Below are positions 29-61,595 of a stretch of 64,000 nucleotides of DNA, one piece after another. The translations under genes were made by a program, and so were the position numbers. Below the pieces are notes generated by a model. That model saw only the letters and a list, made by a program, of their open reading frames with translations, did no database searches and had not been told where the DNA came from. The stretch is from Sipunculus nudus (taxonomy: Eukaryota > Annelida > Sipuncula > Golfingiida > Sipunculidae), in NCBI GenBank assembly GCA_026874595.1, contig CM049318.1, forward strand, positions 43,442,456-43,506,455. The letters run 5' to 3'. Position 1 is the stretch's first letter; each line of letters begins with the position of its first letter.

Positions 29-1790
29 AACAAGTGACCCATGGGTCATGACGCCCAGCCGACTGAAATGTTGACAATATGTCCTTGCACAGACAACTTA
101 TTAAGGTAATGTAGGTGGCATCATTGTTCATGCATATTAGCTAAAGTTTATCAAGACCCATAAGTACAACAAATCTGATGACAAACCAACCGGCCTTTCA
201 TGAGGAATCTGGCAATTTGTGTGTATTTTGCATTATTTCTAGGGTGCTCAAACATACCCCAAGACCCTGAGAATATAGATTAACTGTGAACCAATTTCAG
301 GTTTCTGTGGAGAACTTTTGAGAAAGTCTCAGGATGTCAAGTTAGAATATTATGGGCCAAAAGGTTATGATTTGTGCCCTACTTTGGTATCAAATTTTTT
401 AATTATTCTGAGGGGTCCTTAAATTTATAAGCCCCATAGCTCAGAAAATATGGGTAACAAAGACCTAAATACATGTTTCCAAGGAGATTTTCATAGACCT
501 CCCTGGATTTTTGATTAGAAGATTCCAGGTCTAATGTTTATGATTTGTGCCCTGCTTTGGTATATAATTTTTAATTATGATGGGGGAGCCCAATAGCTCA
601 GAGAATATGGGTAACAGAGACCTTATTTCAGGTTTCCATGGAGACTTTTCATGTACCTCTCTGGATGTACCGGTAAAGTGGGAAGATTCCAGGTCCAGCG
701 ATTACAATTTGTGCCCTGTTAACAGATGACGGAATCTTTTGAGGTCTCAAAAATAGATAAAAAATAGTAAAAAATCGAAAAAAATACAGGTGGCATCACC
801 AGTCTGCAGAAACTGATGAAAAACGCCATGATGAAAGAATCATGCAAAGAATCATGGTGATCAATGCATTAGTTGTTCAGCTACTTGAGCTTTTGTATCA
901 AATTTTTCATTATTCTGGAGGGTTCTTCGGAGCCCCTTAGCTTGATCGAAGAATATGGATACCAGAGACCTATTTCCAGATTTCCAAGGAGACATTTCAT
1001 GGGCCTCCCTGCATGTCGAGACAGGAGTTTTAAGTCCAGCGGTTACGATTTGTGCCCTATGAAAAGAAGTCATCTTTTAAGGTCTCAAAATAGAGAAAAA
1101 AAATCGTTAAAAATTTTTTTAAAAATACAGGTGGCGCCACCAGTCTGCAGAAACTGATAAAACACTCCCTGATTAATATCCACGCAAAGAATCATGGTAA
1201 TCAATGCATTAGTTGTTCAGATACTTGAGCTTTTGTATCAAATTTTTCATTATGCTGGGGGGTACTTCAGAGCCCCTTAGCTGTAAGAATATGGGTAACA
1301 GAGACATAATTCAAGGTTTCCAAGAAGACTTTTCATCGACCTCTCTGGATGTAGAAGATGAGAAGATTCCAGGTCCAGCGGTTAAGATTTGCGCCCCGTT
1401 AACAGTTGACGGCATTTTTGGAGGTCTCAAAAATTGAGAAAAAAATCATTTAAAAAATCGAAAAAATACAGGTGGCGCCACCAGTCTGCAGAAACTGATA
1501 TAACATCCCATGATCAATATCCATGCAAAGAATCATAGTGATCAATGCATTAGTTGTTCAGATATTTGAGCTTTTGTATCTAATTTTTTTATTATTTGGG
1601 GGGGGGGGGGGTACTTGGGAGCCCCATAGCTTGAAGAATTTGGGTAACAGAGACCTAATTCTAGGTTTTTCAATGAGACTTTTCATGGACCTAACTGGAA
1701 GTAAAGTTGGAAGATTCCAGGTCCAGTGTTTACGATTTGTGCCCTATTAACAGATGACGGAATCTTTTACGGTCTCAAAATAGAGGAAAA
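29..1790 (+). mobile_element. F1 Helentron-like element, 3'-truncated
   Basis: It begins AACAAG followed by the palindrome TGACCCATGGGTCA and a diverged subterminal motif (GCCCAGCCGA in place of GCTCAGCTGA). The body is a tandem array. It has no F1 3' hairpin: at 1791 a second F1-type 5' end interrupts the last monomer. No protein-coding capacity is seen. Confidence 0.7.
250..1788 (+). repeat. Tandem array of ~340-bp monomers (F1 core), about 4.5 copies
   Basis: Recurring landmarks are GCCCCATAGCTCAGA, ATGGGTAACAGAGACC, AGATTCCAGGTCCAG, GATTTGTGCCCTGTTAACAG and ACAGGTGGCGCCACCAGTCTGCAGAAACTGA. Copies are about 335-350 bp apart. Exact GGTGGCGCCACC occurs at 1130-1141 and 1471-1482; an earlier copy is diverged (GGTGGCATCACC near 790). 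The same monomer makes up the large array at 28640-35560. Confidence 0.9.
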
Positions 1791-2746
1791 CATGGCCCAT
1801 GGGTCAGGGTGCTCAGCTGATCATGATTGGACTGTAAATGCATCACCATTGTGATACTATATTTAGTCGACAATCCTTATGAATATCATGGACATGTTAG
1901 GCTATTATAAAGGAATATAATGTAATATGTGAGAAAATGATGTATGAAATAACCTGACCGATGGATTAATATGGAGTAAATATAGTGGTTTATTTTTTAT
2001 TTATTTGGGAGCTGTTGAAAATAGGGATATATTTGAGCAAATATGAATGCAAGGACAGTACACTAAGCAGTGGTAGAATGATGATAAGGCTATTTGTTGA
2101 AGGATCTATAGTGTATGGAAGTCCGCAAGATTTCAATTTGACAGATATAATGTTATGACTACCTATGCTGAAGAGGGGATTTATGAATTGTGACTGTATG
2201 ACAGGATATCTCTTAGGTCTTGATTAGGTACATTATATTGATGCCCACCACGTCTACATATTACACAATATTGACATAATTTCTGGCATGTACATAGGTA
2301 ACAAATAGTTATACAATATATAAAAATATGAATATATCTGATTCATCTTGTTCCCGTTTACTGAGGCTGACATTGGGATGGGGTTTGGAGAAGGAAACAG
2401 TGTGGGCAGCAAGGAGGGTTGGATGTAGAGAGAAAAAGAGATAGAGAGAGAGAGGGACGGAGCTACAACAGTTCTTAAACACCTGGAAGGTTGAAATCTA
2501 AAATATTATGAAATGTAGATATAGTCTGAGAGAAAGAGGTTATTTAAGCCATGGTTGGTTAAAATGATTGAAGAAATTGTAGCAAATAATATTTCTATTG
2601 GATACCTTTCTGACAGGCTGTTGACAGTTCAACATTTTACACATTTGTCTAATGGGATTCAATTTTTTTAATAAACTTTTTTTTCTATTTTATGACGTAT
2701 ATACAGTTGCTTTAAAGTCCCCACTCCACAGGCGGAAGGATTTAAT

Positions 2747-2769
2747 GGGGGGGGGGGGGGGGGGGGGGG
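2747..2769 (+). repeat. Poly-G tract, 23 bp
   Basis: This is an uninterrupted G run inside the degenerate 1-kb F1 unit. Equivalent runs occur at 3942-3958 and 4489-4508 at a similar place in the repeat. Confidence 0.95.
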
Positions 2770-3284
2770 TTGGGTTATGATGGTAGTTACAACGCCTTTG
2801 TCTCTCTGTATATCTTTTCTTCAAATTATTAAATTTTATGCTATAGCAATAGAACTATTGTTCACAGTGCCAAGGAGCAAGGACTCAGTGGGGTGGGGGA
2901 AGGGGATTGAGGGAGTTACAATACCCTTGCATATACGTACAGGATATGAAATTAAATTAATCAGTGCTTACAGGAAAAAAAAAAGTTTACTCATAATTAT
3001 TAAATATCTAAAACAGGCAGAAAGCTAGAGAAACAAATCAAATCATTTTAATTCCCATTCTTCTGAGCCAGGAAATTATGAACAATTTTTACATAAATTC
3101 CTTTTTTAATAAAATCATTTTTTTTCCAGGTTTGAAAATGTAACTATACATTTAGAGTATAACATATATATGTGAATATTTCAGTTGATTCACAGTTCTT
3201 AACTGCATCAACATATATATCTTATAAATCAGGTTTATAGTACCTGTCAACAGAATGGGATGGAGGAAGGAAGGGAGGCACAGG

Positions 3285-3288
<4 letters not shown>

Positions 3289-3326
<38 letters not shown>
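3289..3326 (+). repeat. (GA)n microsatellite
   Basis: About 19 GA dinucleotides, followed by further purine-rich GAGA/GAAAGA sequence to about 3375. Confidence 0.95.
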
Positions 3327-3333
<7 letters not shown>

Positions 3334-5332: not shown

Positions 5333-7947
5333 AACAAGGGACCTATGGGTCACGACGCTCAGCTGTTATATATGATAAAAAAATATTATTTAGAAATGAG
5401 GCACATGCTGGTTTTGTGTGGTAATAAATATAAGCTGTATTATGAGTTGTTGTTGTTTAGCTTATGTATGATTTTGATAGTACCTTTGGAGACAGGGAAG
5501 AGGATTGATTTCATTTATTTTATTAACAAATGGAGTACTACTGTCACACAGATTTTGACTTGGCCATATAACTTATAAGCAGAACATATAATATAAGAGT
5601 TTAACTATTTATTAAAAAAATTACAAATATTGTCCCAAATATAATTTTTATTAAAAATAATAAGAGAATCATATGATTTTTTTTAATGAAATATAACTGA
5701 TATGATTATTAAAATAATATTAAAGAATATATTCATGAATGCATTCATGAATACATTTCGAAAGTATTTGCACGAGTATTCATATACTTTCATTTTTACC
5801 TGAATTCCCATTCTTTATGCAAGAAATTTTATAATGGAGTACATAATCATATTCGTATTTAAATACAATTACAAAGTATTCGCACCATGTCTGGTATTTA
5901 TTCAGTTTTCACCAAACAATGATGTTGAGAATCCAGAATATACAAAATTCACACATTTAAATAATGATCATAAGTACCTGGTTTTATGGCTTTTATTTAT
6001 ATTAAAAAATAACTGTAAAAAATTCATTTTGGACTAATTTCACATCAATGTACACACTAGACACAGTAGGAATCTAGATTAATATTATCAACTGCATCTT
6101 TGTCTATCATTAATTTCCTTCATATAATCCTTAATGATTAGTAATGAATAATATGATTTACTTCTTTATCATTAAAAATGAACTGAAAAATGCCATAGGT
6201 GACTGCATGGTGTTATTTGGAATATGTGACATTCTACCCATCGATACAAGATTCTTATATCATCAGTAACTGCAAGTTAATTTCCTGTTATTATAAACTA
6301 ACAAATTCCTTTTCTATTTTTCTTTAATTTGTTATTAAAAACCAATAAAAATTTATTAATTTATTGTTTATTGTTATGTTGTTGGTTAAAACTACTAGAT
6401 GAGTTGGGTTGAACACCTGGATCAACTGTGGCTGGCCATAAGCTGCCTGGATTCTCCCCACAAGCGTGCATAATTTGATGAAAGGTCAACAAGGTCAACA
6501 TACAGGTGACTCAAGAGGGGCTGGAGAGAGCCAAAGTCTGACAGGGTCTCATAAAAAACATTAATAAAAGCTACAATATTTGGCAAATTTCTTTCAGCTT
6601 TCTAAACTAAAAAGCTGAAATCCTTATGTGTGCATGATATGAAAATTATATCAACAGTGCTCACGGGAAACAAACGTGCCATGGTCACAGTTGGGCAAAA
6701 TTTAAGGTACTAATTTTATATTTATACTAATAACTTATAAAATTTGAAAAATTCAGAACTAATTTTGGGTATTCAATTGAATCTTGATTAAATAATGTTA
6801 CATCCCTGACAAAAAAGATCTCTAGCTTCAGCAATGCCCTTGTTAAGGGAGTAAATATATTTCTTGATTTTTTACAAAGTGCATTATGTTTGGGCCCATA
6901 ACTTAAAAAAAATACACAATACTGACATCATTTCTGGCATGTGCATAGTGAATGTATAGAAAAATATGTATATTATATATGATCAAAGTCAGATCAGTGG
7001 TTTTGATATTAGGCAGTCTTAAAGTGTAACATTGGGTTTTTAATGGAAAAATGAAGTTTTTCATTGATATCTCGAAGGAATTAAGTCCTAGTGACCAAAT
7101 TCTTGGCATGGTAGGGGATTTTGGAGAAATCTAACTGTATGCCAAATTTAAGGAACTTAGAGCTGAAGCTCGGGAGCTGAGCTCTAGCAAACTGCATAAC
7201 ACTAGCAACAAGTGACATGGTGCTTGAAAACTTGAATAAAATCTACAGTTTTTGATCAACTGGTTTCAAATTTTTGGTGTTAACAGTTGAAATGCTAACT
7301 AAAACATGCTGTGAAAATTAAATCTACAGCAGTTACAGCAAAAAAACGTGCAATGGTCAAAGTTGGGCAAAATTTAAGGTACCAATTTTTTATTTTTGCT
7401 AATATTTTAAAAAATTTAAAAGATTTTGATCTAATTTTGGGTATACAATTTAATTTTGATTAATAAAAGTAATATTACTGGAAAAAAAGTACTTAGCTTT
7501 AACAAGTTTTGTGTTAAGTGATAAAATTTCTTTCCTGATTATTTACAAAATGCATTATGTTTGGGCCCATAACTTTTTTAAATTAAACAATACAGACCTA
7601 ATTTCTGGCATGTACATAGGAATTATATAGAGGATTATTTATAGGAAATATGAGGAAAAACAGATGAGTTGTTTTGATATTAGGCAGTCCTAAAGTGTGA
7701 AAATAGGTTTTAAATAAAAAATTGAGGTTTTTCCTTAATTTCTCAAAGGAATGAAGTCGCAAAGACCCAGTTTTCAGCTTGGTAGGAGATCTCGGGGACA
7801 TCTAACATTATGCTGAATTTTGGATTCCTAGGTCTTACGGTTTCAAAACGTGCCACATCTACGGACGGACGGACGGACAGACGGACGGACGACGGACAAT
7901 GGACCACGACTATAGCTCAGACGACTTATAGTCAACTGAGCTAAAAA
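5333..7947 (+). mobile_element. F1 full-length element, copy A (~2.6 kb)
   Basis: The 5' end is AACAAG-GGACCTATGGGTCA with subterminal GCTCAGCTG. The 3' end is an (ACGG)n run, then a hairpin TAGCTCAGACGACT / AGTCAACTGAGCTA and terminal CTAAAAA. It is nearly identical along its length to copies B (24627-27225) and C (55786-58407). The interior holds AT-rich sequence, then two related ~670-bp units marked by GTGCCATGGTCACAGTTGG and CATTATGTTTGGGCCC. Short open frames (for example 5834-6037) are shared by all copies but look non-coding. Confidence 0.85.
7860..7900 (+). repeat. (ACGG)n microsatellite of F1 copy A
   Basis: GGACGGACGGACAGACGG-type tetranucleotides lie just before the 3' hairpin. 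The same position in F1 copies B, C and D and in both F4 copies holds the same kind of run. Confidence 0.9.
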
Positions 7948-8589
7948 TGTATATTATATGTGATCAAAGTCAGATCAGTGGTTTTGATATTAGGCAGTCC
8001 TGAAGTGTAACAATGGGTTTTTAATGGAAAAATGAAGTTTTTCATTAATATCTCGAAGGAATTAAGTCCTAGTGACCAAATTCTAGGCATGGTAGGGAAT
8101 TTTGGAGACATCTAACTGTATGCCAAATTTAAGGAACTTAGAGCTGAAGTTGGGGAACTAGCTCTAGCAAACTGCATAACACTAGCTTGATGTAAACAAT
8201 ATGTGACATGGTGCTTGAAAACTTGAATAAAATCTACAGTTTTTGATCGACTGGTTTCAAATTTTTGATGTTAACAGTTGAAATGCTAACAAAAACATGC
8301 TTTGAAAATTAAATCCATAGCAGTTACAGGAAAAAAAATGTGCCATGGTCAAAGTTGGGCAAAATTTAAGGTACCAATTTTTTATTTTTGCTAATATTTT
8401 AAAAAAATTAAAAGATTTTGATCTAATTTTGGGTATACAATTTAATTTTGATTAATTAAAGTTATATTATTTGAAAAAATGTCCAAAGCTTTAACAAGTT
8501 TAACAGACAGACAGACAGACGGACAGACGGACGATGGACAAAGAGTGATTGCCAAAGCTCAGATGACTTTCAGTCAGCCGAGCTAAAAA
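7948..8589 (+). mobile_element. Second F1 3'-end segment next to copy A
   Basis: It repeats the 6950-7450 part of copy A (from TGTATATTATATGTGATC) and ends in its own ACAGACGG run, a hairpin AAAGCTCAGATGACT / AGTCAGCCGAGCTA and CTAAAAA. It has no 5' end of its own, so it is a tandem duplication of the 3' part or the remnant of an older host copy. Confidence 0.7.
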
Positions 8590-8620: not shown

Positions 8621-9110
8621 AACAAGGCCTACAGGCCTAATGCAAACCTGTGCAAAGTTTGGGAGTATGAATGGGTTTTTATTTTTAAAATCTAATATTG
8701 ATCCTCTTATATCCTGCATATCTACTTTAGTAGTCATTATGATTTCAGCAAAATGGACTTTTTGGACCTGCAAGTTTCAGACTAGGACATTTTAAAACTA
8801 GGATGTATCAGTCAGGATATTCCAGATATGTTCTTTTTACCAGGGAGGATTATTGGGACAGATGAACGGACAATTTGGCAGCATGGTTTCTGAGAAGATT
8901 TTTTTAAAATGTTTTTTAGCTTCTTCCCTTTAAAATCTAAAAAATGCAGTAAGCTAAGAAATAAGCAAAATCCAAAAGAATTTTTTAGATGACAAATTTT
9001 TTGCAAAAAAATATGGTGATGCTAGCTCCAGCCCTTTTTGAGAAAGCTCTGACGCACGATGGACGACGGAGACGCCACACAAATGCATAAGCTCACAGTT
9101 TCACTAAAAA
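8621..9110 (+). mobile_element. F3 Helentron-like element, short complete copy (490 bp)
   Basis: It begins AACAAG with the palindrome AGGCCTACAGGCCT and the subterminal motif GCAAACCTGTGC. It ends ATGCATAAGCTCACAGTTTCACTAAAAA, whose CACAG-TT-C part is complementary to the 5' motif. ACGATGGACGACGG-type sequence lies before the end. Similar sequence continues after 9110 in other F3 copies, so this may be one module of a longer composite. Confidence 0.65.
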
Positions 9111-9179
9111 TGCAAACCAAGTTTTTTTCAAACAGTTGAAAGATATACTCATAATAGTTCTAATCTAGGCATTCTGTAT

Positions 9180-9245
9180 CTAGAAGATGTGTCTAGACAT
9201 CTAGAGACTGTGTCCAGACATCTAGACACAATGTCTAGACACAAG
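9180..9245 (+). repeat. TCTAGA palindrome cluster
   Basis: Short repeats of GTGTCTAGACATCTAGA and variants. Equivalent clusters lie at about 16445-16510, 37255-37292 and 40812-40876 in other F3 copies. Confidence 0.8.
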
Positions 9246-9663
9246 ACAGAGCCAGGTCAGTTGCCATGATGATGTCTGGACCCCACCTGGTTGTACTGAG
9301 TGACCTCTTGACTTGGTTGCTGAAACTCAGCATGTTGTCAAATCTGTTTTCAAACACAAAGCCTTTTTCAATTGGCTACACTGCTTTTTTAAAGCTGCAT
9401 TTACCCAATCTATTCTTATAAAACCAGCAGAACAATACCATAGAATATTTCTTGTTAAGTTTAAACCAATCAGCTTAACTGTTTCATCATAAAACAGTGT
9501 ATAAGCTAGAAGAATCTAAAATTATATTTTCGCTTGTGAAAAACAGAACAATGTAGGTGGCGCCACCAATACCTCAATTTCAGATTTGACATATGTGACA
9601 AACATTGGCATAAAATTTGGTGATGATAGCTCCAGCCGTTTCTGATATTTTACTTTTAGTATG

Positions 9664-12860: not shown

Positions 12861-13658
12861 TTGTGACCCCAAAATTCTTTTGGATCATCCACTATTGGCA
12901 AGTGAGCTATATATTCAAGATGGAAGACCTGGGATAAAAGTCTGGAATAAAATGCATCCACAGTATCTTTTAAGATGCAAGTCCAGTGCCCTTGACCTTT
13001 GACCTCATGAACCTAAAACCTATAGGGTTCTTACTTTAGTGGTTGGCCATACATAAGTCACGTTTGAAATCCATATGGCTATCAACACTGGAAATATCAT
13101 AAGAGTTGTGTGATTTTCACCAAATATGGACACATTAAAGGTCAAGGCCACTCTCATGGTAAAGGTCATGACCCAAATGTAAATAGACCTCATCCCATAA
13201 CCCATCTCTCTACATGTGCATAATATGAAAGAAATCTGTCCATTAGTTTTTGACTTATAAAATCAAGTGGCAATTATGGGGGTATTAAAAGGCGTAAAAA
13301 CAAGAAAAGGATAGTATGTGGCGCCACCAGTTTCCGGTATATCACAAGGCTATCCAAGATCTTTAGTTACCTTGATTTTTGGACCAGTCCATGCAAGCTT
13401 ACTTGAGATATTGAAGAATTTGTGTTATTTTCAGCAAAAATGGACCTATTCAAGGTCAAGGTCACTCTCCTAGCATAGGTCATGACCCCATTTTAAATAG
13501 GCTTTGTCCCCTTACCTATATCTATACAAATGTAAAGTTTGGAAAAGATCAGTGAAATATTTTTTTAGTTATCCCGCTCACATGGTTTTTCTGCAGCGGG
13601 GGCAGCAGCGGGACCGTCGTAAAACCATAGTATCCCGACTTTGTCTGGGGATACAATA

Positions 13659-14313
13659 ACAGTTTACCTATAACCAAGGGTAGTACTAGCACAAATGATA
13701 TGGGAGTTTAACTATTTTTTAACAATTAATTGCAATTATTTGGCCAAATATAATTGGTATTAAAACAAGTGACCCAGGGGTCATCAAATTTTCCATTATT
13801 CTGGGGGGTACTTCAAAGCCCCATAGCACAAAGAATATGGGTAACAGAGACCTAATTCCAGGTTTCCAAGGAGACATTTCATGGGCCTCCCTGCATGTCA
13901 ATATACAAGATTCTAGGTCCAGTCGTTATGATTTGTGCCCTGTAAACAGATTACCGCATCTTTTAAGGTTTCAAAATTAGAAAAAAAATATTGTAAAAAA
14001 TCGAAAAATAAAGGTGGCACCACCAGTTTGCTTAAAATGATGAAATACTCCATGATCAATTTCCATGCAAAGAATCATGGTGATCAATCCATAGTTGTTC
14101 AGATACTTGAGCATTTGTATCAAGTTTTCCATTATTCTTATGGGGTACTATGAAGCCCCATTGCATAAGGTTTTGGGTAACAGAGACCTAAAATATTGTT
14201 GGTATCCAAGGAGACATTTCATGGGCCTCCCTGCATGACAAGATACAAGATTCTAGGTCCAGTCATTACAATTTGTGCCCTGTTAACAGATGACCGCATC
14301 TTTTAAGGTCTCA
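13659..14313 (+). mobile_element. F1 fragment with two ~340-bp monomers
   Basis: 13680-13760 resembles the interior of F1 copy A (near 5600). A degraded F1 5' end (AACAAGTGACCCAGGGGTCA) lies near 13764, followed by monomers of the 340-bp type with ACAGAGACCTAA and TAACAGATGACCGCATC. It is interrupted by F3 at 14314. Confidence 0.65.
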
Positions 14314-17229
14314 AACAAGGCCTACAGGCCTAATGCGAACCTCTGCAAAGTTTAGGAGTACAAATGGAGGTTTATTTTTAAAATTTAATATTGATCCTCC
14401 TAAGTCCTGCATATCTACCTTAGTCATTATGATTTCAGCAAAATGGACGTTTCTGACCTGCAAGTTTCGGACTAGGATATTTTAAAACCAGAATATGGGT
14501 AGTCAACAAGCCACTATGTGTATCTGCAGAAATCAGAGTGGGACAGGTGAAGTGAGGCATGGATTAAGTGGCAAGGGGAATAGAGCGTGCTGTGTTGCAT
14601 ATTAGCATGGATGTCTGCAGCTTAAATGTGAATGTAGGTGGTGCCACCTGTCATAAAATCGAGAAATTGTCCAGGATGTATAAACCTGCAAAATTTCAGG
14701 TGGATAAGTCAAACCATTGCTGAGATATGAGTGATTTTATCCCAAAGCAGATGGATGCTATGCATAAGTGGTTGCAGGTGGCGCCACCAGTTTTGCCTAT
14801 GATGAAGAGCTATGTGAGATCTATACACAAGCAAAATTTTGGCTCAATCAGTCAAACGGTTCCCCAGATAGGAGTTTGGATGTCTGCAGAGTAAATGTGA
14901 ATGTAGGTGGTGCCACCTGTCATAAAATCGAGAAAGCTGTCAAGGATGTAAAATACCTGCAAAATTTCAGGTGGAAAAGTCAAACCACTGCTGAGATATG
15001 AGTGATTTTAAACTAAGGCAGATGAACAGATAGATGCTGTGCATAAATGTTTGCAGGTGGCGCCACCAGTTTTGCCTATGATGAAGAGCTATGTGAGATC
15101 TATACACATGCAAAATTTTGGCCTAATCAGTCAAACGGTTCCCCAGATATGAGTTTGGATGTCAGCAGAGTAAATGTGAATGTAGGTGGCGCCACCTGTC
15201 ATAAAATCGAGAAAGCTGTCAAGGATGTAAAATACCTGCAAAATTTCAGGTGGAAAAGTCAAACCACTGCTGAGATATGAGTGATTTTATCCCAAATGCA
15301 GATGAACAGATGGGTGCTGTGCATTAATGGTTGCAGGTGGCACCACCAATTTGCCTATGATGAAGAGCTATGCGAGATCTATACACATGCAAAATTTTGG
15401 CCTAATCGGTCAAACGGTTCCAGAGAATGAGCTTGGATGTCTGCAGAGTAAACATGAATGTAGGTGGTGCCACCTGTCATAAAATCGAGAAGGCTGCCCA
15501 GGATGTATAAACCTGCAAAATTTCAGGTGGATAAGTCAAACCATTGCTGAGATATGAGTGATTTTATCCAAAGGCAGATGAACAGATGGACACTGTGCAT
15601 TAATGGTTGCAGTTGGCGCCACCAGTTTTGCCTAAGATGAAGAGCTATATATACACATGCAAAATTTTGGCCCAATCGTTCAAACAGTTCCCGAGATATG
15701 AGCTTGGATGTCTGCAGAGTAAATGCGAATGTAGGTGGCGCCACCTGTCATAAATCGAGAAAGCTGTCAAGGATGTAAAAACCTGCAAAATTTCAGGTGG
15801 ATATGTCAAACCACTGTTGAGATATGAGTGATTTTATCCAAAGGCAGATGAACAGATGGACGCTGTGCATAAGTGGTTGCAGGTAGTGCCACCAGTTTAG
15901 CCTATGATGAAGAGCTATGTAAGATCTATACACATGTAAAATTTTGCCCCAATCAGTCAAACAGTTCCCGAGATATGAGCTTGGATGTCTGCAGAGTAAA
16001 TGTGAATGTAGGTGGCACCACCTGTCATAAAATGGAGAAAGCTGTCCAGGATGTATAAACCTGCAAAATTTCAGGTGGATAAGTCAAACCACTGCTGAGA
16101 TATGAGTAATATTATCCAAAGGCAGATGAACAGATGGACGCTTTGCAAAAATGGTTGCAGGTGGTGCCACCATTTTTAGTGTATGTTATAAAGCTATCAA
16201 AGGGCTACATTTCTGCAAAATTTTTAGCCTGATCGGTCAAAATGTTCCCAAGATATGTGGGTTTATGTGTGGAAACAGACACACAAATGGACGCTGGGCA
16301 GCAAGGAAAGGTCAGAGGTCAACAAAAAATGAGGATGCAGCAGTTTACATGTGACCTGATGATAAACCCAATTGGCTTAAAATGCAAACCAAGTTTTTTC
16401 AAACAGCTGAAAGATATAGTTCCAATAATCTGGGAATTCTGCATCTAAACATTGTGTCTAGACGTCTAGACGCTGTGTCTAGCCGTCCAGACACATTGTC
16501 TAGACTACCCCCCTAGAGCCAGGTCAGTTGACATGGTGATGTCTGGACCCCACCTGTTTGTACTGAGTGACCTCTTGACTTGGCTGCTGAAACTCAGTAT
16601 GAAGTCAAATCTAGAATAATTCTTGTAAAGTTTAAACCAATCAGCTGAACAGTTTCATCATAAATCAGTGTATAAGCTAGAAGAGTTTAAAATTATTTTT
16701 TTGCTTGTAAAAAACACATCAATGTAGATGGCGCCACCAATACCTCAAAATCAGATATGACATATGTGACAAACATTGGTATAAAATTTGGTCATTATAG
16801 CTCTAGCTGTTTCTGAGATTTTAATTTTAGAGTGCTTTTTTGGACAGATGACTAAGTTCAACCTCCTGTAACTCGGCCAAATATCTCCGAACTGGAACCA
16901 TTCGAACAAACTTGAAAATGATTGTTCCAGGGATCATTTCTGTGAAATATTGGACAATTTGGCTGGACAGTTTCAGAGAAGAAGATTTTTATAGGTTTTT
17001 AAGCTTTTTCTCTATATAATCTAAATTAACGCAGATATCCAATAATAAGCTCAAGGGCACCAAGTTTCACATGTGACGAATTCTTACATGTAATTTGGAT
17101 CTGCCAGCTCCAACAGTTTCTAACTTACAGCCATGGATGGCGGAAAGCCAGCCCTGGACGGCGGACGGCGGATGGCTGATGACAGACGGACAACGCTGCG
17201 CCATTGCATAAGCTCACAGGTTCGCTAAT
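14314..17229 (+). mobile_element. F3 Helentron-like element with ~280-bp array (2.9 kb)
   Basis: The 5' end is AACAAGGCCTACAGGCC with GCGAACCTCTGC. The 3' end is CATTGCATAAGCTCACAGG then TTCGCTAA. It interrupts an F1 monomer at GGTCTCAA. Inside are an AATATGGGTAGTC module near 14500, the array, a TCTAGA cluster and the common F3 tail. The architecture is the same as at 39227-41634. Confidence 0.75.
14630..16340 (+). repeat. Tandem array of ~280-bp monomers, about six copies
   Basis: Each monomer has two palindromes of the GGTGGCGCCACC type: one before TGTCATAAAATCGAGAAAG and one before AGTTTTGCCTATGATGAAGAG. Exact copies lie at 14777-14788, 15056-15067 and 15185-15196. Period is about 279 bp (14768, 15047, ~15330, ~15608, 15873, 16151). 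The open frames of about 77 aa here are repeat by-products. Confidence 0.9.
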
Positions 17230-18120
17230 AATTCTGCCCAGTGGTTATGGAGGAGTTCTCCGGAAACCTATGCAGCGATGGCGGCAGCGTCGGTGTCCAA
17301 CTGAAAACAAAGTTTCCCCAAAATTCTGTTTTGGCGGATACAATGATTGTAGCTGGCACCACCAGTCTTATATACAACAAAGAGATATATAAATATGCCC
17401 AATGTCAGACTGATATGTCAAACCCCTCCTGTAAAATAAGCAGGGACAAACACAGTGCAAAAATTATTGTAGGTGGCACCACCAGTCTTGTACATTGTAA
17501 AGATACCCGATATGTATAACATGCCCAACTTTAGGCTGATGTATCAATTTCCTCTGTAGAAATAAGTTGGCCCATACACTGCAAAAGTCAATGTAGTAGG
17601 CACCACCTGTCTTGTAAATGAGAATATCATCAAAGACGCATAGACAGGTCAAAATATCAGTCCAATACATCAAACTTCCCCAGAGTTTGATGCACTGGGC
17701 TGACAAGGCTTAGGTGAGTAAGGCAGTTGCCCCTGCCCTTGCTGCCTAAAGCAACTGCACTGAGTGAACTCTTGACCTGCACCTGGCTAGACTGAGTGAA
17801 CTTTTGACCTGTACCTGGCTGCACTGAGTGAACTCTTGACCTGTTGCATAATCTGACACAGTTGGCAGTCTACCAAAGCTATAAATAGATTCAGGCTGAA
17901 CTTTGGTGACAAATATGATGCAGTGAGCAGTCTGCCAAAGCTGTAAATAGAATGCAGCTACTGCACTGAGTAAACCCTTGACCTATACTTGGCTGCACTT
18001 CTTCCAATCCTGGCACTGTGCCAAAACTATTTATAGAGCTGACATCATCTTGGCTAATGGCCAACATCAAGGCACTGGCAATCTGCCAATGGTAAACCAA
18101 GTGCTGCCATCTGCACACAA
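17230..18120 (+). repeat. F3-related ~120-bp and ~65-bp tandem units
   Basis: About three ~120-bp units carry GGCACCACCAGTCTTGTA with a cell of TTATTGTAGGTGGCACCACC. They are followed by short units with CACTGAGTGAACTCTTGACC and GGCAGTCTGCCAAAGC. The same two repeat types recur at 22640-23400 and, inverted, at 50920-51560. Confidence 0.75.
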
Positions 18121-22205: not shown

Positions 22206-22232
22206 CTGAAAGTACAATAAATAAATTTGTAG
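22206..22232 (-). other. Splice acceptor and polypyrimidine tract of the C1GALT1-like exon
   Basis: Read on the minus strand, a T-rich run ends in TGTACTTTCAG just before the first exon base at 22205. Upstream of it the open frame becomes low-complexity and loses similarity to GT31, which supports the boundary. Confidence 0.75.
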
Positions 22233-22261
22233 TGCCAACATATACATGTATATTCAGTTTA

Positions 22262-22290
22262 TATATGTATAAATATATATATATATATGT
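22262..22290 (+). repeat. (TA)n-rich run
   Basis: TATATATATAT-type low-complexity sequence in the intron, close to the splice acceptor. It produces the low-complexity start of the open frame. Confidence 0.8.
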
Positions 22291-22294
22291 CAAG

Positions 22295-28529: not shown

Positions 28530-28639
28530 AACAAGTGACCCAGGGGTCATGACGCTCAGCTGACCAGGAAGACATTGACAAAAGTAATTTTATCATCTGA
28601 ATGTCAAATTTGAATGAAATACTTTTTCCAAACTTGACC

Positions 28640-35560: not shown

Positions 35561-35573
35561 TTTGTGCCTGGTT

Positions 35574-35625
35574 AACGGACAGACAGACGGACAGACGGAC
35601 AGACAGACAGACAGATGGACGACGG
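35574..35625 (+). repeat. (ACGG/ACAG)n microsatellite of F1 copy D
   Basis: Tetranucleotides GGAC, AGAC and AGAT just before the 3' hairpin. Confidence 0.9.
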
Positions 35626-35677
35626 ACAAAGAGTGATCGCTATAGCTCAGATGACTTTCAGTCAGCTGAGCTAAAAA

Positions 35678-43711: not shown

Positions 43712-43989
43712 AACTAGATATTTCTTGGCACCGCAGGTGCCATAGTATCGCCAGACAATTAATCCCCCCCCCTTTAAGAATAGGCCCCCCATCTTCAGCA
43801 ACAATTAATATCAGACCACACTCATAAAAAAGGTCATTCTCATAGAAAAGGTCATGATCCAAATTTCAATATACATCATCCCCTAACCTATGTCTATGTA
43901 TATGCAAGAAATCTGTCCATTAGTTTTTGACTTATAATGCTCACAATACTGTTAAGTGGCAATGATGGGGTATTAAACGGCACGAAAAC

Positions 43990-46600
43990 AAGTAAAAGAA
44001 TAACAGGTGGCACCACCTGTTTCCCGTTCATGACAACACTATCCAAGATCTTCGTTCAAGTTGATTTTTGGACCAATCAATGCATCCCTTATTGGGAAAT
44101 TAATGATTTTGTGTGATTTTCACCATATATGGCAATACTCAAGGTCAAGGCCACTCACTGGAAAGGTCATGACCCCTATTCAAATAAACATTATCCTATA
44201 ACCCATATCCATGTATATGCATAATATGAAAGAAATTTGTCCATTAGTTTTTGACTTATAATGCTCACAGTACTGATAAATGGCAAAGATGGGGTATTAA
44301 ACGGCACAAAACAAGTAAAAGAAAAACAGGTGGCGCCACCTGTTTTCGGTACATGACAATACTTTCCAAGATCTTCGAACATGTTGATTTTTGGACCAAT
44401 GCATGCATCCCTTATTGAGATATTAATGATTTTGTGTAATTTTCACCATATATGGCAATATTCAAGGTCAAGGCCACTCTAATAGGAAAGGTCATGACCC
44501 CAATTTATATATACATTATCCCATAACCCATGTCTATGTATATGCATAATATGAAAGAAATCTGTCCATTAGTTTTTGACTTATAATGCTCACAGGTTAT
44601 AAATGTACTGTTAAGTGGCAATGATGGGGTATTAAACGGCACGAAAACAAGTAAAAGAATAACAGGTGGCGCCATAGTATCGCCAGACAATTAATCCCCC
44701 CCCCCCCCTTTAAGAATAGGCCCCCCATCTTCAGCAACAATTAATATCAGACCACACTCATAGAAAAGGTCATTCTCATAGAAAAGGTCAAGATCCAAAT
44801 TTCAATATACATCATCCCCTAACCCATGTCTATGTATATGCAAGAAATCTGTCCAATAGTTTTTGACTTATAATGCTCACAGTACTGTTAAATGGCAATG
44901 ATGGGGTATTAAACGGCACGAAAACAAGTAAAAGAATAACAGGTGGCACCACCTGTTTCCCATACATGACAACACTATCCAAGATCTTCGTTCAAGTTGA
45001 TTTTTGGACCAATCAATGCATCCCTTATTGAGAAATTAATGATTTTGTGTGATTTTCATCATATATGGCAATATTCAAGGTCAAGGCCACTCATTGGAAA
45101 GGTCATGACCCCTATTCAAATAAACATTATCCTATAACCCATATCCATGTATATGCATAATATGAAAGAAATTTGTCCATTAGTTTTTGACTTATAATGC
45201 TCACAGTACTGATAAATGGCAAAGATGGGGTATTAAACGGCACAAAACAAGTAAAAGAATAACAGGTGGCGCCACCTGTTTTCGGTACATGACAATACTT
45301 TCCAAGATCTTCGAACATGTTGATTTTTGGACCAATGCATGCATCCCTTATTGAGATATTAATGATTTTGTGTAATTTTCACCATATATGGCAATATTCA
45401 AGGTTAAGGCCACACTAATAGGAAAGGTCATGACCCCAATTTATATATACATTTTCCCATAACCCATGTCTATGTATATGCATAATATGAAAGAAATCTG
45501 TCCATTAGGTTTTGACTTATAATGCTCACAGGTTATAAATGTACTGTTAAGTGGCAATGATGGGTTTTAAACGGCACAAAAACAAGTAAAAGAATAACAG
45601 GTGGCGCCACCTGTTTCCGGTACATGACATAACTATCCAAGATCTTGGGTCAAGTTGATTTTTGGACCAATGCATGCATTCCTTATTGAGAAATTAATGA
45701 TTTTATGTGATTTTCACCATATATGGCAATATTTAAGGTCAAGGCCACTCATTGGAAAGGTCATGACCCCTATTCAAATAAACATTATCCTATAACCCAT
45801 ATCCATGTATATGCATAATATGAAAGAAATTTGTCCATTAGTTTTTGACTTATAATGCTCACAGTACTGATAAATGGCAAGATGGGGTATTAAACGGCAC
45901 AAAACAAGTAAAAGAATAACAGGTGGCGCCACCTGTTTCCGGTACATGACAATACTTTCCAAGATCTTCGAATATGTTGATTTTTGGACCAATGCATGCA
46001 TCCCTTATTGAGATATTAATGATTTTGTGTAATTTTCACCATATATGGCAATATTCAAGGTCAAGGCCACTCTAATAGGAAAGGTCATGACCCCAATTTA
46101 TATATACATCATCCCATAACCCATGTCTATGTATATGCATAATATGAAAGAAATCTGTCCATCAGTTTTTGACTTATAATGCTCACAGTTTATAAATGTA
46201 CTGTTAAGTGGCAATGATGGGGTATTAAACGGCACGAAAACAAGTAAAAGAATAACAGGTGGCACCACCTGTTTCCGGTACATGACATTACTATCCAAGA
46301 TCTTCAGTCAAGTTGATTTTTGGACCAATGCATGCATCCCTTATTGAGAAATTAATGATTTTGTGTGATTTTCACCATATATGGCAATATTCAAGGTCAA
46401 GGCCACTCTCATAGGAAAGGTCATGACCCCAATTTAAATAAACATCATCCCATAACCCATATCTATGTATTTGCATAATATGAAAGAAATCTGTCCATTA
46501 GTTTTTGACTTATAATGCTCACAGTACTGTCAAGTAGCAATTTTGGGGATATTAAACGGCATGAAACAAGTAAAGAATAATAGGTGGCGCCACCAGTTTC
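43990..46600 (+). repeat. Tandem array of ~320-335-bp monomers with 935-bp higher-order unit
   Basis: AACAGGTGGCGCCACCTGTTT or variants lie near 44008, 44329, 44665, 44943, 45265, 45600, 45923, 46259 and 46586. The triplets 44008/44329/44665 and 44943/45265/45600 are shifted by exactly 935 bp, showing a three-monomer unit. In 44665-44800 part of the F2 5' region (AGTATCGCCAGACAATTAATC, poly-C) is embedded in the array after GGTGGCGCCA. Short minus-strand frames of ~63 aa are by-products. Confidence 0.9.
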
Positions 46601-46857
46601 TGGAAAATGACAACCCTATCCATGATCTTCGATCAACTTGATTTTGGGATCAATCCATGCAAGTTTTCTTGAGATAATTAAGAATTTGTGTGATTTTCCC
46701 CAAAATTGAACCTATTCAAGGTCAAGGTCACTCTCCTAGTTGAGGTCATGACCTCATTTTAAATAGGCGTCGTCCTCTCACCCATATCTATACATATACC
46801 AAGTTTGGTAAAGATCCGTGAAATATTTGTTGAGTTATTGTGTCCAAAAGAAATCTC

Positions 46858-46879
46858 TGCGGCGGCGGCGGCGGCGGCG
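46858..46879 (+). repeat. (CGG)n microsatellite of F2
   Basis: GCGGCGGCGGCGGCGGCGGC just before the 3' hairpin. The truncated F2 at 60515-61595 has a shorter GGCGGCGGCGG run at 61534 in the same position. Confidence 0.9.
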
Positions 46880-46928
46880 CGACCGTGCCTAAACCATAGT
46901 ATCTCCAGACTATGTCTGGCGATACAAT

Positions 46929-48430: not shown

Positions 48431-50919
48431 ACAATAAAAGAATGAAAAGATTACTGAATGACGGACTCACTGAGTGAATGAATTAATATGTAAGACAAAT
48501 TGTCACAAAGACTAGATGGTTTTTACAAAACGTACATGATGAACCACTCTTATTGATGAATGAATAGAAACATGCATGGACTTTTAACCGCAAAGACTAT
48601 GTTATGTAGGCGTATTTATTTATTTATTTAAAATTTTTTTGCAAGAGTGGTTATGCCTAGAATTTTTAGACATTTTCTAAGTATATTTACTCAAATTCTA
48701 GAATAAGCACAAAAAACGGTTAAACCTATGGTTTCAACTAAAACGGAAATCAAAGAGAAATGTTCTCAAACAATTAATTATGTCCTCATGAAATAATGGA
48801 GGCAAATCAATCCCGTAATTTCTAAATGATTTTTACATCTCAATTTTGAAGTCCTTTGACAGAAGAAATTCTTAACGTTTTGGTCAGCAATCCTGAACGT
48901 CTGTGGGCTTTCTGATCCAGCATTTGTCTGATTACTAAATACCAGTGCCGCATACAGTGTTTTATGTTTGATTTAAAATAGACATGTGTCACTGACTGAT
49001 ATAATCTCTTATACCTATAAATCTATCACAGTTTAAAAAAAACAAATGTTGACAAGAAATTGGTCTTAGACAACGTATAATATATGTACATGACATATAA
49101 TCAGATTCATTTTCACATAATAATGATTAGCTATAGTGACCAGCTTATTAAGAAAAAGAAGATGACCCAGTTTAAAATGTTTTCCCCCTTTTATTGACAT
49201 GTCTATTTTAACGAATCGATCATTCTTTTACCAGGGAGTGAATGAGATATTCACATGTGCATTAGCGTAAAAAAGTAATCTGAAATAGAACCTATAAAAT
49301 ATTTGCTTTCCAAGGGGGCCGCTTAAAACATCAGAGTAATTTTGGTGACCCAGCATTGATTTCACGCCATGTTTCAACACCTTTTTATCACAAAGCCCAT
49401 GCATCCGTATTAGTGTGAAAATCAAAAGTCAGTTGAGCTACACAAAATAAACACCTTAATTATCAAAAACCTAATATGTAATGTTTATTTTAATTTTCAA
49501 TTTATGTGGTTTATTGTATGATCATTAACAAAATCACAATTAACGAAATCATAAAGCATTATATCTTTAAGTTTAACCCAAGCTATTGTTAATTTAATAT
49601 GCAATAAATAATTTCAATTGCACACAACGTCAGAGGAACTCTACGGGAACTTTTTACTGACAATATTGAATAATTCTATTCCTTTATTTGTAACGTATTT
49701 GGTTTATGCGTGTGATGTTGTTTTGATTCTAATTACAGAGACTGTAAAGTATGTGAAGTCTCGGAAAATGTTATGGTATATGCTTCTCTGGAAGCATATT
49801 TTCTCTGGAGATATTTCTGACCGAATGCTTGCAGCCATATTGAATGCTCAAAAAAAAACTGCTCGTGTGTGTAATGTTTGTTTTCAAGATATTAAGTTAC
49901 TTGTTGAATATCCTGGATTCCATCATAGGTAATCTGTCTTTGTATTTCTTTCAGGTCTTATCATGTCCCCTGCTTATCATGTCCCTTTGCATGGGGTAGT
50001 TGTGTGTAGGTGTGGCCAAAAGCAGGTCTTTAACTGGAAGTCTGGAGTGTTCATCACACATTCTTGTGTACTTTTAGAGCGGTTAGGGATCCATGAAATA
50101 TTTTATAATATGATTTATGTGTTAGTCTGGTAGTAAAAAAATTTGCATATTCATCTGCCTAGAAGGGGCTGCAAGGGACACCCCCTCTCCCACCCCGTTA
50201 AATTCTCAGGAACAGCAAGAGCAAGTATCCCAAAATCTTATGCCAAAGTCAGTGACATGTCATATGTTGAAAGATTGAGTTTTTTTGTGGCACCAACTTC
50301 ATTGACCTGTTTTTACGGGCAAACACCTTTTAATTTTATCCCTTTTCAGCTTCTGCATCAAAATCTGCAACGATGAAACTGCAGGCCGAATGATATAATT
50401 TTTCACAAGAATTATCCTTGGGTAGGGTTGTCACAGTTATATAAGATTTCACCAAGTACATTGATCAAGGAAAGCTGAAGTTCGTCTGTATCAAACTAAG
50501 AATCAAACTGAGGGCTGCAATAGTCTTTTTCTGCAAACCTGTTGTTTCAAATTCTGTAAAATTTGCACCAAAATGATTCTTATATTTTCTTCTTTGATCA
50601 GAGTTTACTTAAATGATTTCAGCTGAATTATTTGACCATTTTAAATAAAAGGACATTTAAATAATTTAGTAAACAAAGCTAGTACATTTGTTGTAGTAAC
50701 AGACTGAGCTCTCTTGGTATAAAAGCAGAGGTCTACTGGCAACATAAAACTTATTGGTCCATGTCTAACTAATGTGTAAGATAAATGCATGAAAAAAAAT
50801 ATCTGTATTCTGGTTTTACTTTCAATAGACTAAACATTTTTAATAAAAATTTTATGAATATGTCAGCATGAAAAAATCATTTTACCAGAGTCTTTCAGTC
50901 TGTGTAAACATTTTTAACA
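48431..50919. other. Low-repeat interval, no gene recognised
   Basis: No element ends or arrays were seen. An open frame on the plus strand, 49618-49932 (104 codons, one hydrophobic stretch of about 20 residues, stop just before GTAATCTG), is possible coding sequence but has no recognised domain and weak codon character. Confidence 0.45.
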
Positions 50920-51791
50920 ACAGGCCAAGATTTTGTCTGTATCTATAAACAGCTTGGCAGACTGCCAACTAATTCAGAGTGGGCGACAGGCGAAGATCAT
51001 GTCTGAATCTATAAACAGCTTTACAGACTGCCGACTAATTCAGAGTTGGCGACAGGCCAAGATTTTCTCTCTATCTATTTTTATCTTTAGCAGAACGCCA
51101 ACTGTTTCAGATTAGGCAACAGATTAAAAGTACAGTCAGTGCAGCCCGGTAAAGGTCAGTAGCTACACCTGGCACTTAGCCACAGCTGACACTGGGGGCA
51201 ACTGCCTTCCTCAGTTGAGCTTTTCAGTGTTGTTGACCAAACTCGAGAACATTTCATGTATCAACCTGAATTGTTGGCCTGTTAATGCATCGTTGATGGC
51301 TGTCACCAACTTAAATGATTTTTGCACAGTGTATGTTCCTGTTTAAAACAGTTGGGATTTTATATTTCAGCCTAAAATTAGGCATATCTGTACATTTTGG
51401 ACAGCTCTGTCATGTACAATACCTGTGGCGCCATCTACAATTGTTTCATGTATCTATGCATATAGCCTAAGAGTGGTTTGAATTATCTTCCTGGAATTTT
51501 GTATGTCCAGACATGCTGAATGGCTTTCTTATACACACAACTGGTGGTGCCATTTACAATCAGTTTTGTGTTGTATATAAGCTTTTTTACCAGGAGTGAC
51601 GCTGTGTAATTGGTGCTTGCACTTGGGTTCAAAATGATTGGTACTTGTTATTTACATGTACGTGTCACACATGTATTGAAAAGCAATCAAGCACTTTTCG
51701 TATAATGATCAAGCATGTTATCATGGAAGCATTATTCTAACTGATGTACATCCCATTGCACAGGTTCACATTAGGCCTGTAGGCCTTGTTT
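50920..51791 (-). mobile_element. F3-variant element, minus strand
   Basis: Read on the minus strand it begins AACAAGGCCTACAGGCCTAA and TGTGAACCTGTGCAATGGG at 51791, continues like 42859-43100, then ~120-bp units (GGTGGCGCC variants near 51420 and 51543), then ~65-bp units at 50920-51120 (GGCAGTCTGCCAAGC). No F3 3' end was found. It is the only element in this window clearly in the opposite orientation. Confidence 0.7.
50923..51120 (-). repeat. Tandem ~65-bp units, three copies
   Basis: AGGCCAAGATTTTGTCTG, AGGCGAAGATCATGTCTG and AGGCCAAGATTTTCTCTC start successive copies; AACAGCTTGGCAGACTGCC is within each. It is the inverted form of the units at 17830-18120 and 23230-23400. Confidence 0.85.
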
Positions 51792-52657
51792 TTTTATGAA
51801 ATCATGATTCTCGTCTAATCAGAAGATATACTTTGCTAGATTTTTCAACATTTTGACAATAAAGGATGATAAAAGGTGACATCTTGACCTCTTTAATGAT
51901 TTATTTTAACTACAATAACTTGATTGCTGACAGCGATATTAGGTGATTTTACTCTTGTTATCACACAGCATCACTTCAAAAGCCTAAAAACTATTAAATA
52001 TTGCTGAAAATATGCCATATCTTGATTATTTTGTATACATAAAAGTAAGGCATTCAAATTATTGGAATATAATAATTATTTTGCAATATATATAAATATA
52101 TTCTAAAAATTATTTTGTTTTTTTTTTAATTTTTAATACAAAATGAATCAATATTTCAATATTCATCTCAAATAATTCATCAAAATTTGTTTGGGTATCT
52201 GTAGAAAGTTATATTTCGCCATTTTATTAGCACTTGGTAAATATTATATGGCCAAGACCGATCAAAAACCAAATTATTACCAAAAATTAAATTGTACACA
52301 CAAAAATTGATATATTTTAAAGATGGCCGCCAAAAAGTCATTTAGCTGGGCATGCTGCATGTCCATCACATGTTTTCATATAGTTCAGATGCTGTAGTAA
52401 CTGAAAAACATAACAGCATTTAGTCCCCCTATTTGGTAGTTAAACCCATATTTTGGGGGTTTGGCTCATCAACTAATGGTACACTTGTGCAAGCGTGCCA
52501 TTCCCAAATGTTAATATCCCACTTATAAATGTATTTATTATCCATAAATGGGCAAATGTGTATTAAAGAGGGGTTTAAAAGAGTTATTTAACTATCTTGA
52601 ATGCATTACCCCAAAGTTTTATTATTCTATAATAAGGAAAAATGAATATAACTAGAG
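51792..52657. other. AT-rich interval, nothing recognised
   Basis: No gene, element end or array was seen. Confidence 0.5.
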
Positions 52658-53110
52658 ATTTCTGGTAATGGAGATGCCTTAGTATCCCCAGACATATAAT
52701 AGGCTCCTGTGACCTTCATTTTTGACCTTGTGACCAAAAAATGGATAGGGGTCTTCCTCCATCTGCAGGTGAACCATATCTGCATGATAAATGGTCTGAG
52801 ATGAAAAGTTTGGCTAAAAATGCATCCACAATCTTTTAAAAGATGTGTTTCCTGTGACCTTGATCTTTGACCTCAAAATCTAAAGGAATCTTGTTATATT
52901 GATGGGCCATATATAAGTCAAGTTTGAAATCCATATATCAATCAAAGCTGGAGTTATCATCAGGAAATAAATTTTTGGACAGATGGTTCCTGTGACCTTC
53001 ACCTTTGACAAGGTGCCATCAAAATGATGGGCACTAGTTTAGCATCTTACTTGTGTGAACTTGTATCTAGACTGGTACCCCATAATAAAATTGTGGTGGC
53101 GCCACCGCGT
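52658..53110 (+). mobile_element. F2 5' fragment
   Basis: AACTAGAGATTTCTGGTAATG and TTAGTATCCCCAGACAT at the start, then two units of the 290-bp F2 core. After about 53010 the sequence changes; an exact GGTGGCGCCACC is at 53095-53106 in a context not seen elsewhere (followed by GCGTGTCTGTG). Confidence 0.6.
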
Positions 53111-60246: not shown

Positions 60247-60477
60247 TTTGAGGTTTTTCCTTAATTTCTCAGAGGAACGAAGTCGCAAAGACCCAGTTTT
60301 CGGCTTGGTAGGAGATCTTGGGGACATCTAACATTATGCTGAATTTAGGATTCCTAGGTCTTACGGTTTCAAAACGTGCCACATCTACGGACGGACGGAC
60401 GGAAGGACAGACGGACGGAAGACGGACAATGGACCACGACTATAGCTCAGATGACTTATAGTCAGCTGAGCTAAAAA
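60247..60477 (+). mobile_element. F1 3'-end fragment
   Basis: Matches the last 230 bp of copy A: GGTAGGAGATCTTGGGGACAT, (ACGG)n, hairpin TAGCTCAGATGACT / AGTCAGCTGAGCTA and CTAAAAA. It directly follows another F1 3' end, so the two ends are stacked. Confidence 0.8.
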
Positions 60478-60514
60478 CTAGTCAGTACCAGTCAAGACAA
60501 AAGAGAGCCGCTAA

Positions 60515-61595
60515 ACTAGTGTCCATCCATCAAAAGTGATACGGGTCTTCCTCTATTGGTAGATAAAAGGTCTGATATGAAAAGTTTGGCTGAAAATGCA
60601 TCAACAATCTTTTAAAAGATGTGTCCTGTGACCTTTGACCTAGTGACCCCCATAATCAATTGGGATCTTGCTTTTTTTATGGGACATATACAAGAAGAGT
60701 TTCAAATCCATACATAAAAAAAGCTTGAATTATCATCCAGAAACTAATTTTTTGACAGATAGCTCCTGTGGCCTTGACCTTTGACGGTGACCTTGTGACC
60801 CCAAAATTGATATGGATCATCCATTATTTGCAAGTGAGCTATATGTTCAAGATGGAAGATCTGAGATGAAAAGATTGGCTTAAAATGCATCCACAATATC
60901 TTTAAAGTTATGAGTCCAGCGACCTTGACCTCTGACCTCATGACCTTAGAACCTATAGGGTCCTTACTTTAGTGGTGGGCCATACATAAGTCACGTTTGA
61001 AATCCATATGGCTATCAACACTGGAGATATCATAAGAGTTGTGTGATTTTCACCATATATGGAAATATTAAAGGTTAAGGCCACTTTCATTTCAAAGGTC
61101 ATGACCCAAATTTAAATAGACCTCATCCCATAACCCATCTCTCTACATGTTCATAATATGAAGAGAAAACTGTCCAATAGTTTTTTAATTATAATTCTCA
61201 CAGTACTGTCAGGTGGCAATTATGGGATTATTTAAAGGCATAAAAACAAGAAAAGGATAATAGGTGGCGCCACCAGTTTCCGGCATATCACAAGGCTATC
61301 CAAGATCTTCAATCACCTTGATTTTTGGACCAATCCATGCAAGCTTTCTTTAGATATTTAAGAATTTGTGTTATTTTCAGCAAAAATGGACCTATTCAAG
61401 GTCACTCTCCTAGCAAAGGTCATGACCCCATTTTAAATAGACTTTGTCCTCTTACCTATATCAATAAAAATGTAAAGTTTGAAAAAGATCAGTGAAATAT
61501 TTTTTGAGTTATCCCGCTCACAAGTTTTTTCTGTGGCGGCGGCGGCGGAACCATCTTAAAACCATATTATCCCTACTTTTTCTGGAGATACAATA
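60515..61595 (+). mobile_element. F2 element, 5'-truncated
   Basis: Matches the 12340-13658 part of the F2 copy at 11649: TGACCTTTGACC units, then GGTGGCGCCACCAGTTTCC (palindrome 61263-61274), GGCGGCGGCGG, and a damaged end with TTTCTGGAGATACAATAA. The 5' hairpin is missing. Confidence 0.75.

Follow-up and report, generated by a model that had tools for sequence, protein, structure and literature searches.

A 12-bp palindrome shared by tandem cores of Helentron-type elements in Sipunculus nudus

Repeat elements and palindrome content of the locus

The 64,000-bp stretch of the Sipunculus nudus genome analysed here (GenBank assembly GCA_026874595.1, contig CM049318.1; C13:43442456-43506455 when contigs are labelled C1, C5, C13 etc.; hereafter the window) contains a series of tandem-repeat cores and their relatives which carry a 12-bp palindrome, GGTGGCGCCACC. 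The palindrome occurs in 25 exact copies in the window, as opposed to 0.00 in dinucleotide-preserving shuffles (n=100), and in 60 sites when one mismatch is permitted (0.03 in shuffles of the same kind and number). Among the exact 12-bp palindromes of the window, in which CpG stands at 0.384 of expectation, it ranks first (25 of 83), with GACCCATGGGTC second at six copies. All ten positions given for it in an earlier, sequence-only reading of the window hold the exact 12-mer, and the one-base variants, which that reading described as more numerous, number 35. Across the genome (1,426,538,692 bases in 153 contigs) the exact word is found 111,729 times and the reversed word, used as a control, 14 times. 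The flanks, which had likewise been noted to converge, are retained as a 19-mer with TRYA before and ARW after the palindrome in 37,691 genomic copies (18,940 and 18,751 on the two strands; control 0). The enrichment of the palindrome is thus real and very strong. In the literature searched, the string GGTGGCGCCACC was encountered only in a chitinase paper, judged by its title. An occurrence of the 19-mer in viral contigs was also considered and set aside; three loci were involved, and 401 bases of one of these (L001) resemble, by eye, the coding DNA of an unrelated contig.

Two of the repeat types that carry the palindrome, here labelled F1 and F3/X, are confirmed as parts of Helentron-type elements, the non-autonomous Helentron derivatives (HINEs), on the basis that the ends of their carriers in the window match the HINE features described for Drosophila, mites and oyster in the excerpted accounts (PMC4067079, PMC7492417). 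The Helentron-like carriers proposed in the earlier reading are accordingly upheld for F1 and F3/X, the types whose carrier ends were mapped individually, and are putative for F2, F4 and Y. The F3/X elements start with AACAAGGCCTACAGGCCTAATGCGAACCTGTGC and finish in a GACGC-like microsatellite followed by CACAGGTTCGCTAAA, with the subterminal inverted repeats (subTIRs) GCGAACCTGTG and CACAGGTTCGC and a 3'-end palindrome or hairpin, AGGCCTACAGGCCT. The equivalent features of the F1-type elements are the subTIRs GCTCAGCTGAC and GTCAGCTGAGC and the 3' hairpin TGACCCATGGGTCA, and both these and other HINEs have the 3' box AACAAGTGACCCATGGGTCATGACGCTCAGCTG and a 5' box comprising a subTIR, an inverted repeat (IR) and a GTCC microsatellite. 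The short 5'-side microsatellite and central tandem repeats typical of Helentrons and HINEs are present. All 12 of the 3' boxes found in the window face one way and the 5' boxes agree, though the 5' pattern is nearly symmetric. Elsewhere, 5' end boxes recur within F1 arrays (locus L010 at 1000, 2047 and 3091; L041 at 820; L063 at 3377; L064 at 2718), a pattern resembling tandem multiplication or insertion of 5' ends. The features of the window are given in Table 1.

Table 1. Palindrome-bearing repeats and HINEs in the window
Feature	Position	Strand	Remarks
3' end box of the HINE carrying the 602..1790 core	29-61		HINE sense is the window minus strand
F1-type tandem core, period ~341	602..1790	-	Palindromes at 789 (2 mismatches), 1130, 1471
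Palindrome-free HINE, standard 3' and 5' boxes	5333..7960	-	None within 3 mismatches
X-type copy	9007..9663	-	Exact palindrome at 9556
Further X copies	37611, 11188, 19574		37611 exact; 11188 and 19574 variants
F4-type repeat	13106..13660	-	Palindrome variant at 13317; carrier ends unmapped
Short F1-type piece	13782..14315	-	Palindrome variant at 14013
F3/X HINE	14314..17048	-	280-bp core, two palindromes per unit, spacing ~129 + 149; single X palindrome variant at 16727
Y-type pair	17342..17495	-	Palindrome variants at 17352, 17472; relative at 22923
F2-type core, period 302	20046..20920	-	Palindrome variants at 20278, 20580; carrier ends unmapped
F2-type relatives	24489, 27387		Carrier ends unmapped
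Palindrome-free copies of HINE 5333..7960	24627-27240, 55786-58420		96-97% identical
Large F1-type HINE	28530..35676	-	3' box at 28530; 5' box at ~35645-35676
Core of large F1-type HINE	28687-35576	-	Two Tandem Repeats Finder (TRF) rows, period 166 then 338
Microsatellite of large F1-type HINE	~35578-35628	-	
F3/X HINE, fuller copy	39227..41634	-	Hairpin end AACAAGGCCTACAGGCCTAATGC at 39227; other end ...CACAGGTTCACTAA at ~41634; X palindrome variant at 41184
F4-type tandem cores, period 323-336	43830..46928	-	Palindromes and variants at 44006-46583
Old F3/X/Y-like element, reversed	50198..51792	+	Only reversed one recognised among the matches listed
Isolated exact palindrome	53095..53106	none	Right flank resembles shared box by eye
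F4-type repeat	61039..61596	-	Exact palindrome at 61263

Monomer types and their relatedness

Forty stretches were taken, mostly around listed occurrences of the palindrome, with the last 25 all on C1 below 0.95 Mb. Together with the window these provided 199 exact or one-mismatch sites, of which the 192 with sufficient flank were grouped by the 30 bases on either side into 32 clusters, some representing subfamilies of one type. The palindrome is present in at least six repeat types, for which the labels are our own: F1 (340 bp), F3 (280 bp, with two palindromes), X, F4, F2 and Y, with 33 sites falling outside any type. Most monomers are 280-340 bp in length. X and F3 occur as neighbours in five places, ~0.9-1.2 kb apart. 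Profiles were compared for F1 (20 monomers), F3 (8), F4 (10), X (6), F2 (4) and Y (3). The pairs among F1, F3, F4, F2 and Y mostly match in register over the palindrome and the ~95-105 bp to its right, roughly one third of the monomer length, with E values of ~1e-10 for F1-F4 and 1e-21 for F3-Y when the word is present; a few pairs involving F2 or Y are short or weak. The X profile mostly matches over 20-36 bp, and once over ~130 bp, with F3. When the central word is masked in the targets the F3-Y match is still strong (1e-14), while the other matches have E values of 0.0005 or worse, many in register and some not, and some pairs are lost. On these alignments, the monomers look like one old family of which the palindrome is the best-shared part. 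The tandem cores had been considered unrelated in the sequence-only reading, which does not hold given the common box of roughly 100 bp; its statement that the sequences outside the palindrome cannot be aligned fails for this box in most pairs and stands for the remainder of the monomer.

A minisatellite with TCTAGAC-type palindromes lies beside X-type copies (window 16444-16504, 40812-40876 and 9176-9241); the 14-bp palindrome TCTAGACGTCTAGA occurs 12 times in the window and loci.

Conservation and form of the palindrome

Each half of the palindrome is retained when the sites are chosen by the other half. When selection uses the left half and its flank alone, the 179 sites obtained keep the right-half bases at 0.89-0.97 outside the CpG and at 0.77-0.85 within it. 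Selection by the right half alone gives 275 sites, in which the left-half bases are kept at 0.86-0.93 outside the CpG and at 0.75-0.79 within it. Sixty-five sites in the left-half-picked set have one mismatch, 43 of which are CpG transitions at the centre. This two-sided constraint supports the earlier proposal that a self-complementary site has persisted as most of the monomer changed. Across 57 F1 monomers delimited by an anchor outside the 12-mer, the 12-mer averages 0.94, compared to 0.86 for the median 12-bp window.

The word could also lack any current function, having been copied in bursts of a few master elements, such that its conservation would reflect shared ancestry. The many young-looking copies of few families, with 1,694 exact F1 38-mers and 1,073 exact F3 38-mers, and the existence of some active-looking HINEs without the palindrome are in keeping with this. 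Between families, however, the remainder of the monomer is nearly non-alignable while the 12-mer stays, a comparison in which the sites were picked by the 12-mer, and the less biased half-site selection also finds each half kept, making this explanation very unlikely.

Only F4, of four contexts, gives a strong predicted hairpin (-9.0 kcal/mol), those in the other three being weak (-2.3 to -3.4 kcal/mol). This weakness, together with the conservation of the central bases that would form the loop, favours recognition of the duplex, and a DNA hairpin was discarded as the conserved form. A structured RNA was likewise discarded, with an Rfam search of the window at gathering thresholds returning 0 matches.

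Coding partner of the F1-type elements

A Helitron Rep profile has 143 matches in the genome, several of them in open frames of more than 2,200 aa. Four copies, here termed class B, are located at C17:35630192, C13:9109249, C5:42912065 and C10:71600289, with frames of more than 2,300 aa in C17 and C13. The 2342-aa frame of C17 matches Herpes_teg_N, DUF6570, Helitron_like_N and PIF1, the PIF1-type helicase being read in this copy only, and a candidate C-terminal endonuclease scores 20.8 bits with Exo_endo_phos, under the cut-off of 24.5. An F1 array lies far upstream of the Rep/helicase frame in all four copies. Four palindromes within two mismatches occur in each of the C5 and C10 arrays, three within one mismatch in C17, and five one-mismatch CpG variants in C13. 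In C17, C5 and C10 the array is closed by the 5' box, and a 3' box that agrees with the common HINE box at all but one or two of its 33 positions is situated ~4.71 kb beyond the Rep match, ~1 kb beyond the end of the C17 frame; a second 3' box follows 45 bp further on in C10. The C5 and C10 copies match C17 at 94-96%, and C17 and C13 are collinear in pieces across the 9-kb 5' half with 65-90% identity. A coding Rep/helicase partner is thus identified for the F1 type, the main carrier of the palindrome, and is demonstrated for this type and not for F3/X.

The position of the array 5' of the frame in each of the class-B copies, and the 3' box and core that these have in common with F1-type HINEs, would also be expected if the palindrome were a promoter or enhancer element of the Rep/helicase gene, passively carried by HINEs as deletion derivatives. 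Array and frame are, however, separated in C17 by ~5 kb without a sense frame of at least 110 aa, part of which is an inserted F3-like element, and widely diverged HINE families still retain the palindrome, and we regard this as unlikely. A sense frame of 148 aa is found at the array edge in the C5 copy.

Proposed function of the palindrome

Retention of the palindrome in non-coding derivatives with diverged cores, its 5'-side location, its presence in several copies and its dyad symmetry favour a site acting in cis for a symmetric protein. An ancient tandem monomer would have formed the 5'-side core of a Helentron lineage and its HINEs. In the coding copies the array adjoins the 5' terminal repeats, and the F1-type HINEs retain both ends and the core without the coding part. 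Divergence of the monomers has left only the 12-mer and the ~100 bp next to it alignable. A putative protein, which we infer to act as a dimer, may read the palindrome as double-stranded DNA with two-fold symmetry at several sites per element, and its binding may help the element in cis by assembling or timing the transposition complex. We modestly favour this reading, in which the palindrome, as the best-shared part of an ancient Helentron monomer, serves as a symmetric protein site without being strictly required.

Several observations weigh against it. Three HINEs with standard ends (5333, 24627 and 55786) have no palindrome within three mismatches, which makes it dispensable for movement. 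No palindrome within two mismatches occurs around three class-A Rep copies, for two of which the sequence covered was 10.5 kb upstream plus one 4-kb downstream stretch, and for the third one 4-kb stretch per side, with unread gaps. The class-B copy on C13 yielded no 3' box at the expected position, and its 5' match is poor (8 mismatches). The 12-mer, at which conservation was expected to peak, is well conserved in F1 but not uniquely so, ranking 23rd of 326 windows because its central CpG decays; the windows that outrank it include the anchor itself, the block AAGATTCTAGGTC and windows overlapping the 12-mer. The sample is furthermore a single genome, and we know of no protein that binds the palindrome.

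The protein may alternatively be a host factor whose motif was adopted by the element, most likely CTCF, in which case the element would spread architectural sites. CTCF sites are one-sided, with the core YAGRKGGCRS and CCA upstream. The sequence TRYA-GGTGGCGC, with its flank preference for A at -1 and Y at -2, resembles this core, and a CTCF-like gene at C11:67037578 is 55-56% identical to the human zinc-finger region, with equal helix contact positions in fingers 3-5, where finger numbers and positions are our own count. Helitrons carry transcription factor sites (HSF-1) in Caenorhabditis elegans (PMC8896005), and CTCF motifs are the most abundant in the open chromatin of one annelid (PMC7854359), according to the excerpted texts. 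At the palindrome, however, the core is matched and the upstream CCA is not, and the constraint is about equally strict in both halves, whereas a single CTCF site would need only one. The likeness extends over 10 bases, picked out among hundreds of motifs, which makes it weak, and the E2F motif, TGGCGCCA, fits the centre equally well. Our literature search found no link between CTCF and AGGTGGCGC. CTCF appears the best host candidate by likeness of the motif, with the second half unexplained, and we consider adoption of a host site unlikely overall. If a host protein does bind, more than 100,000 exact copies of the palindrome could reshape regulation. Within the tandem cores, this one short site stands out as directly testable.

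Orientation of the insertions

The most surprising by-product of the palindrome analysis is that insertions of several families tend to face the same way as their neighbours out to 200-400 kb on C1 and flip between domains. At C1:0.14-2.95 Mb the 19-mer lies on one strand in 97 of 100 cases among the matches listed. When the F1, F3, X and 5'-box places in C1:0-20 Mb were joined at 15 kb into 124 clusters, same-strand pairs made up 18 of 22 at 0-50 kb, 24 of 38 at 50-100 kb, 56 of 80 at 100-200 kb, 94 of 153 at 200-400 kb and 165 of 303 at 400-800 kb, and about half beyond, with these values reached in 3, 149, 1, 6 and 161 of 2,000 shuffles, respectively. In the pooled contigs C1-C6, where several rows come from single amplified loci, same-strand pairs number 26 of 27 below 20 kb, 13 of 14 at 20-50 kb and 17 of 22 at 50-100 kb. 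Repeat pairs of at least 350 bp in the window have the same orientation in 121 of 122 cases, many of them from the same arrays and thus non-independent.

Bacterial single-strand transposons of the IS200/IS605 type take their orientation from replication, in a study whose excerpted text reports no Helitron polarity (PMC5371812). By analogy, Helentrons may integrate as single strands with the direction of the fork setting their orientation, so that the elements would record replication polarity, a proposal we make only tentatively and think doubtful. Nested insertion alone fits the polarity below 50 kb, and less so that at 100-400 kb. Evidence against the polarity includes the C1-C6 pool, in which about half of the pairs agree at 100 kb and beyond (21 of 38, 31 of 54), the 5' boxes at C1:0.56-2.95 Mb, of which nine of 13 are on the majority strand and four of 13 on the minus strand (3 of 100 for the 19-mer), and the Rep matches 10-60 kb apart, which show the polarity weakly, sharing a strand by hand count in nine of 14 pairs and not in five. 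A non-Helentron repeat was sought in the window as a polarity control and none was found. Should they be tied to replication, the orientation domains would let the fork direction in an animal be read from sequence alone.

Two local observations concern orientation. A host-like exon with Fringe/Galactosyl_T similarity (window 21394-22443, minus strand) lies on the strand of the HINE sense, which is one point only. At C1:10740611-10826102, 28 exact F3 38-mers occur in ~86 kb, all on one strand, representing local amplification.

Comparison with known systems

Other DNA transposons, such as maize En/Spm with its TNPA sites, have multiple short subterminal sites bound by a protein that assists transposition. 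The palindrome is similar to the TNPA sites in forming several short sites near an element end, but En/Spm belongs to a different transposon class. The Drosophila DINE-1/Helentron elements (PMC4067079) comprise Helentrons encoding Rep, helicase and endonuclease (the last of these scoring below its cut-off here), and have HINE derivatives, subTIRs, a 3' stem-loop and central repeats as observed here, whereas the excerpted account describes no conserved dyad site in the repeats. Several bivalve repeats can be likened to the present ones by description only (PMC5139131, in excerpt): the BIV160/Cg170 satellites, which are tandem repeats with two conserved motifs; the DTC84/pearl elements, with a conserved palindrome near the repeat junction; and the phBglII400 satellite DNA, whose breakpoints are associated with a 12-bp palindrome in 13 of 16 cases. 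The Cg_HINE elements of Crassostrea gigas (PMC7492417, in excerpt) are, like those described here, non-autonomous Helentrons with a satellite-like tandem core, a subTIR, an IR and often a GTCC-type microsatellite on one side, and a subTIR and palindrome on the other. Their divergent cores have two conserved segments in common, a likeness likewise drawn from the description only. The excerpted text assigns no role to the tandem cores of bivalve Helentrons and leaves the autonomous partner in C. gigas open, its autonomous elements not being relatable to the HINEs, whereas in S. nudus a Rep/helicase Helentron shares its core with the HINEs and has a 3' box nearly identical to theirs. The palindrome is carried by a known kind of element, the Helentron and its HINEs, and its main carrier, the F1 type, is linked to a coding partner.

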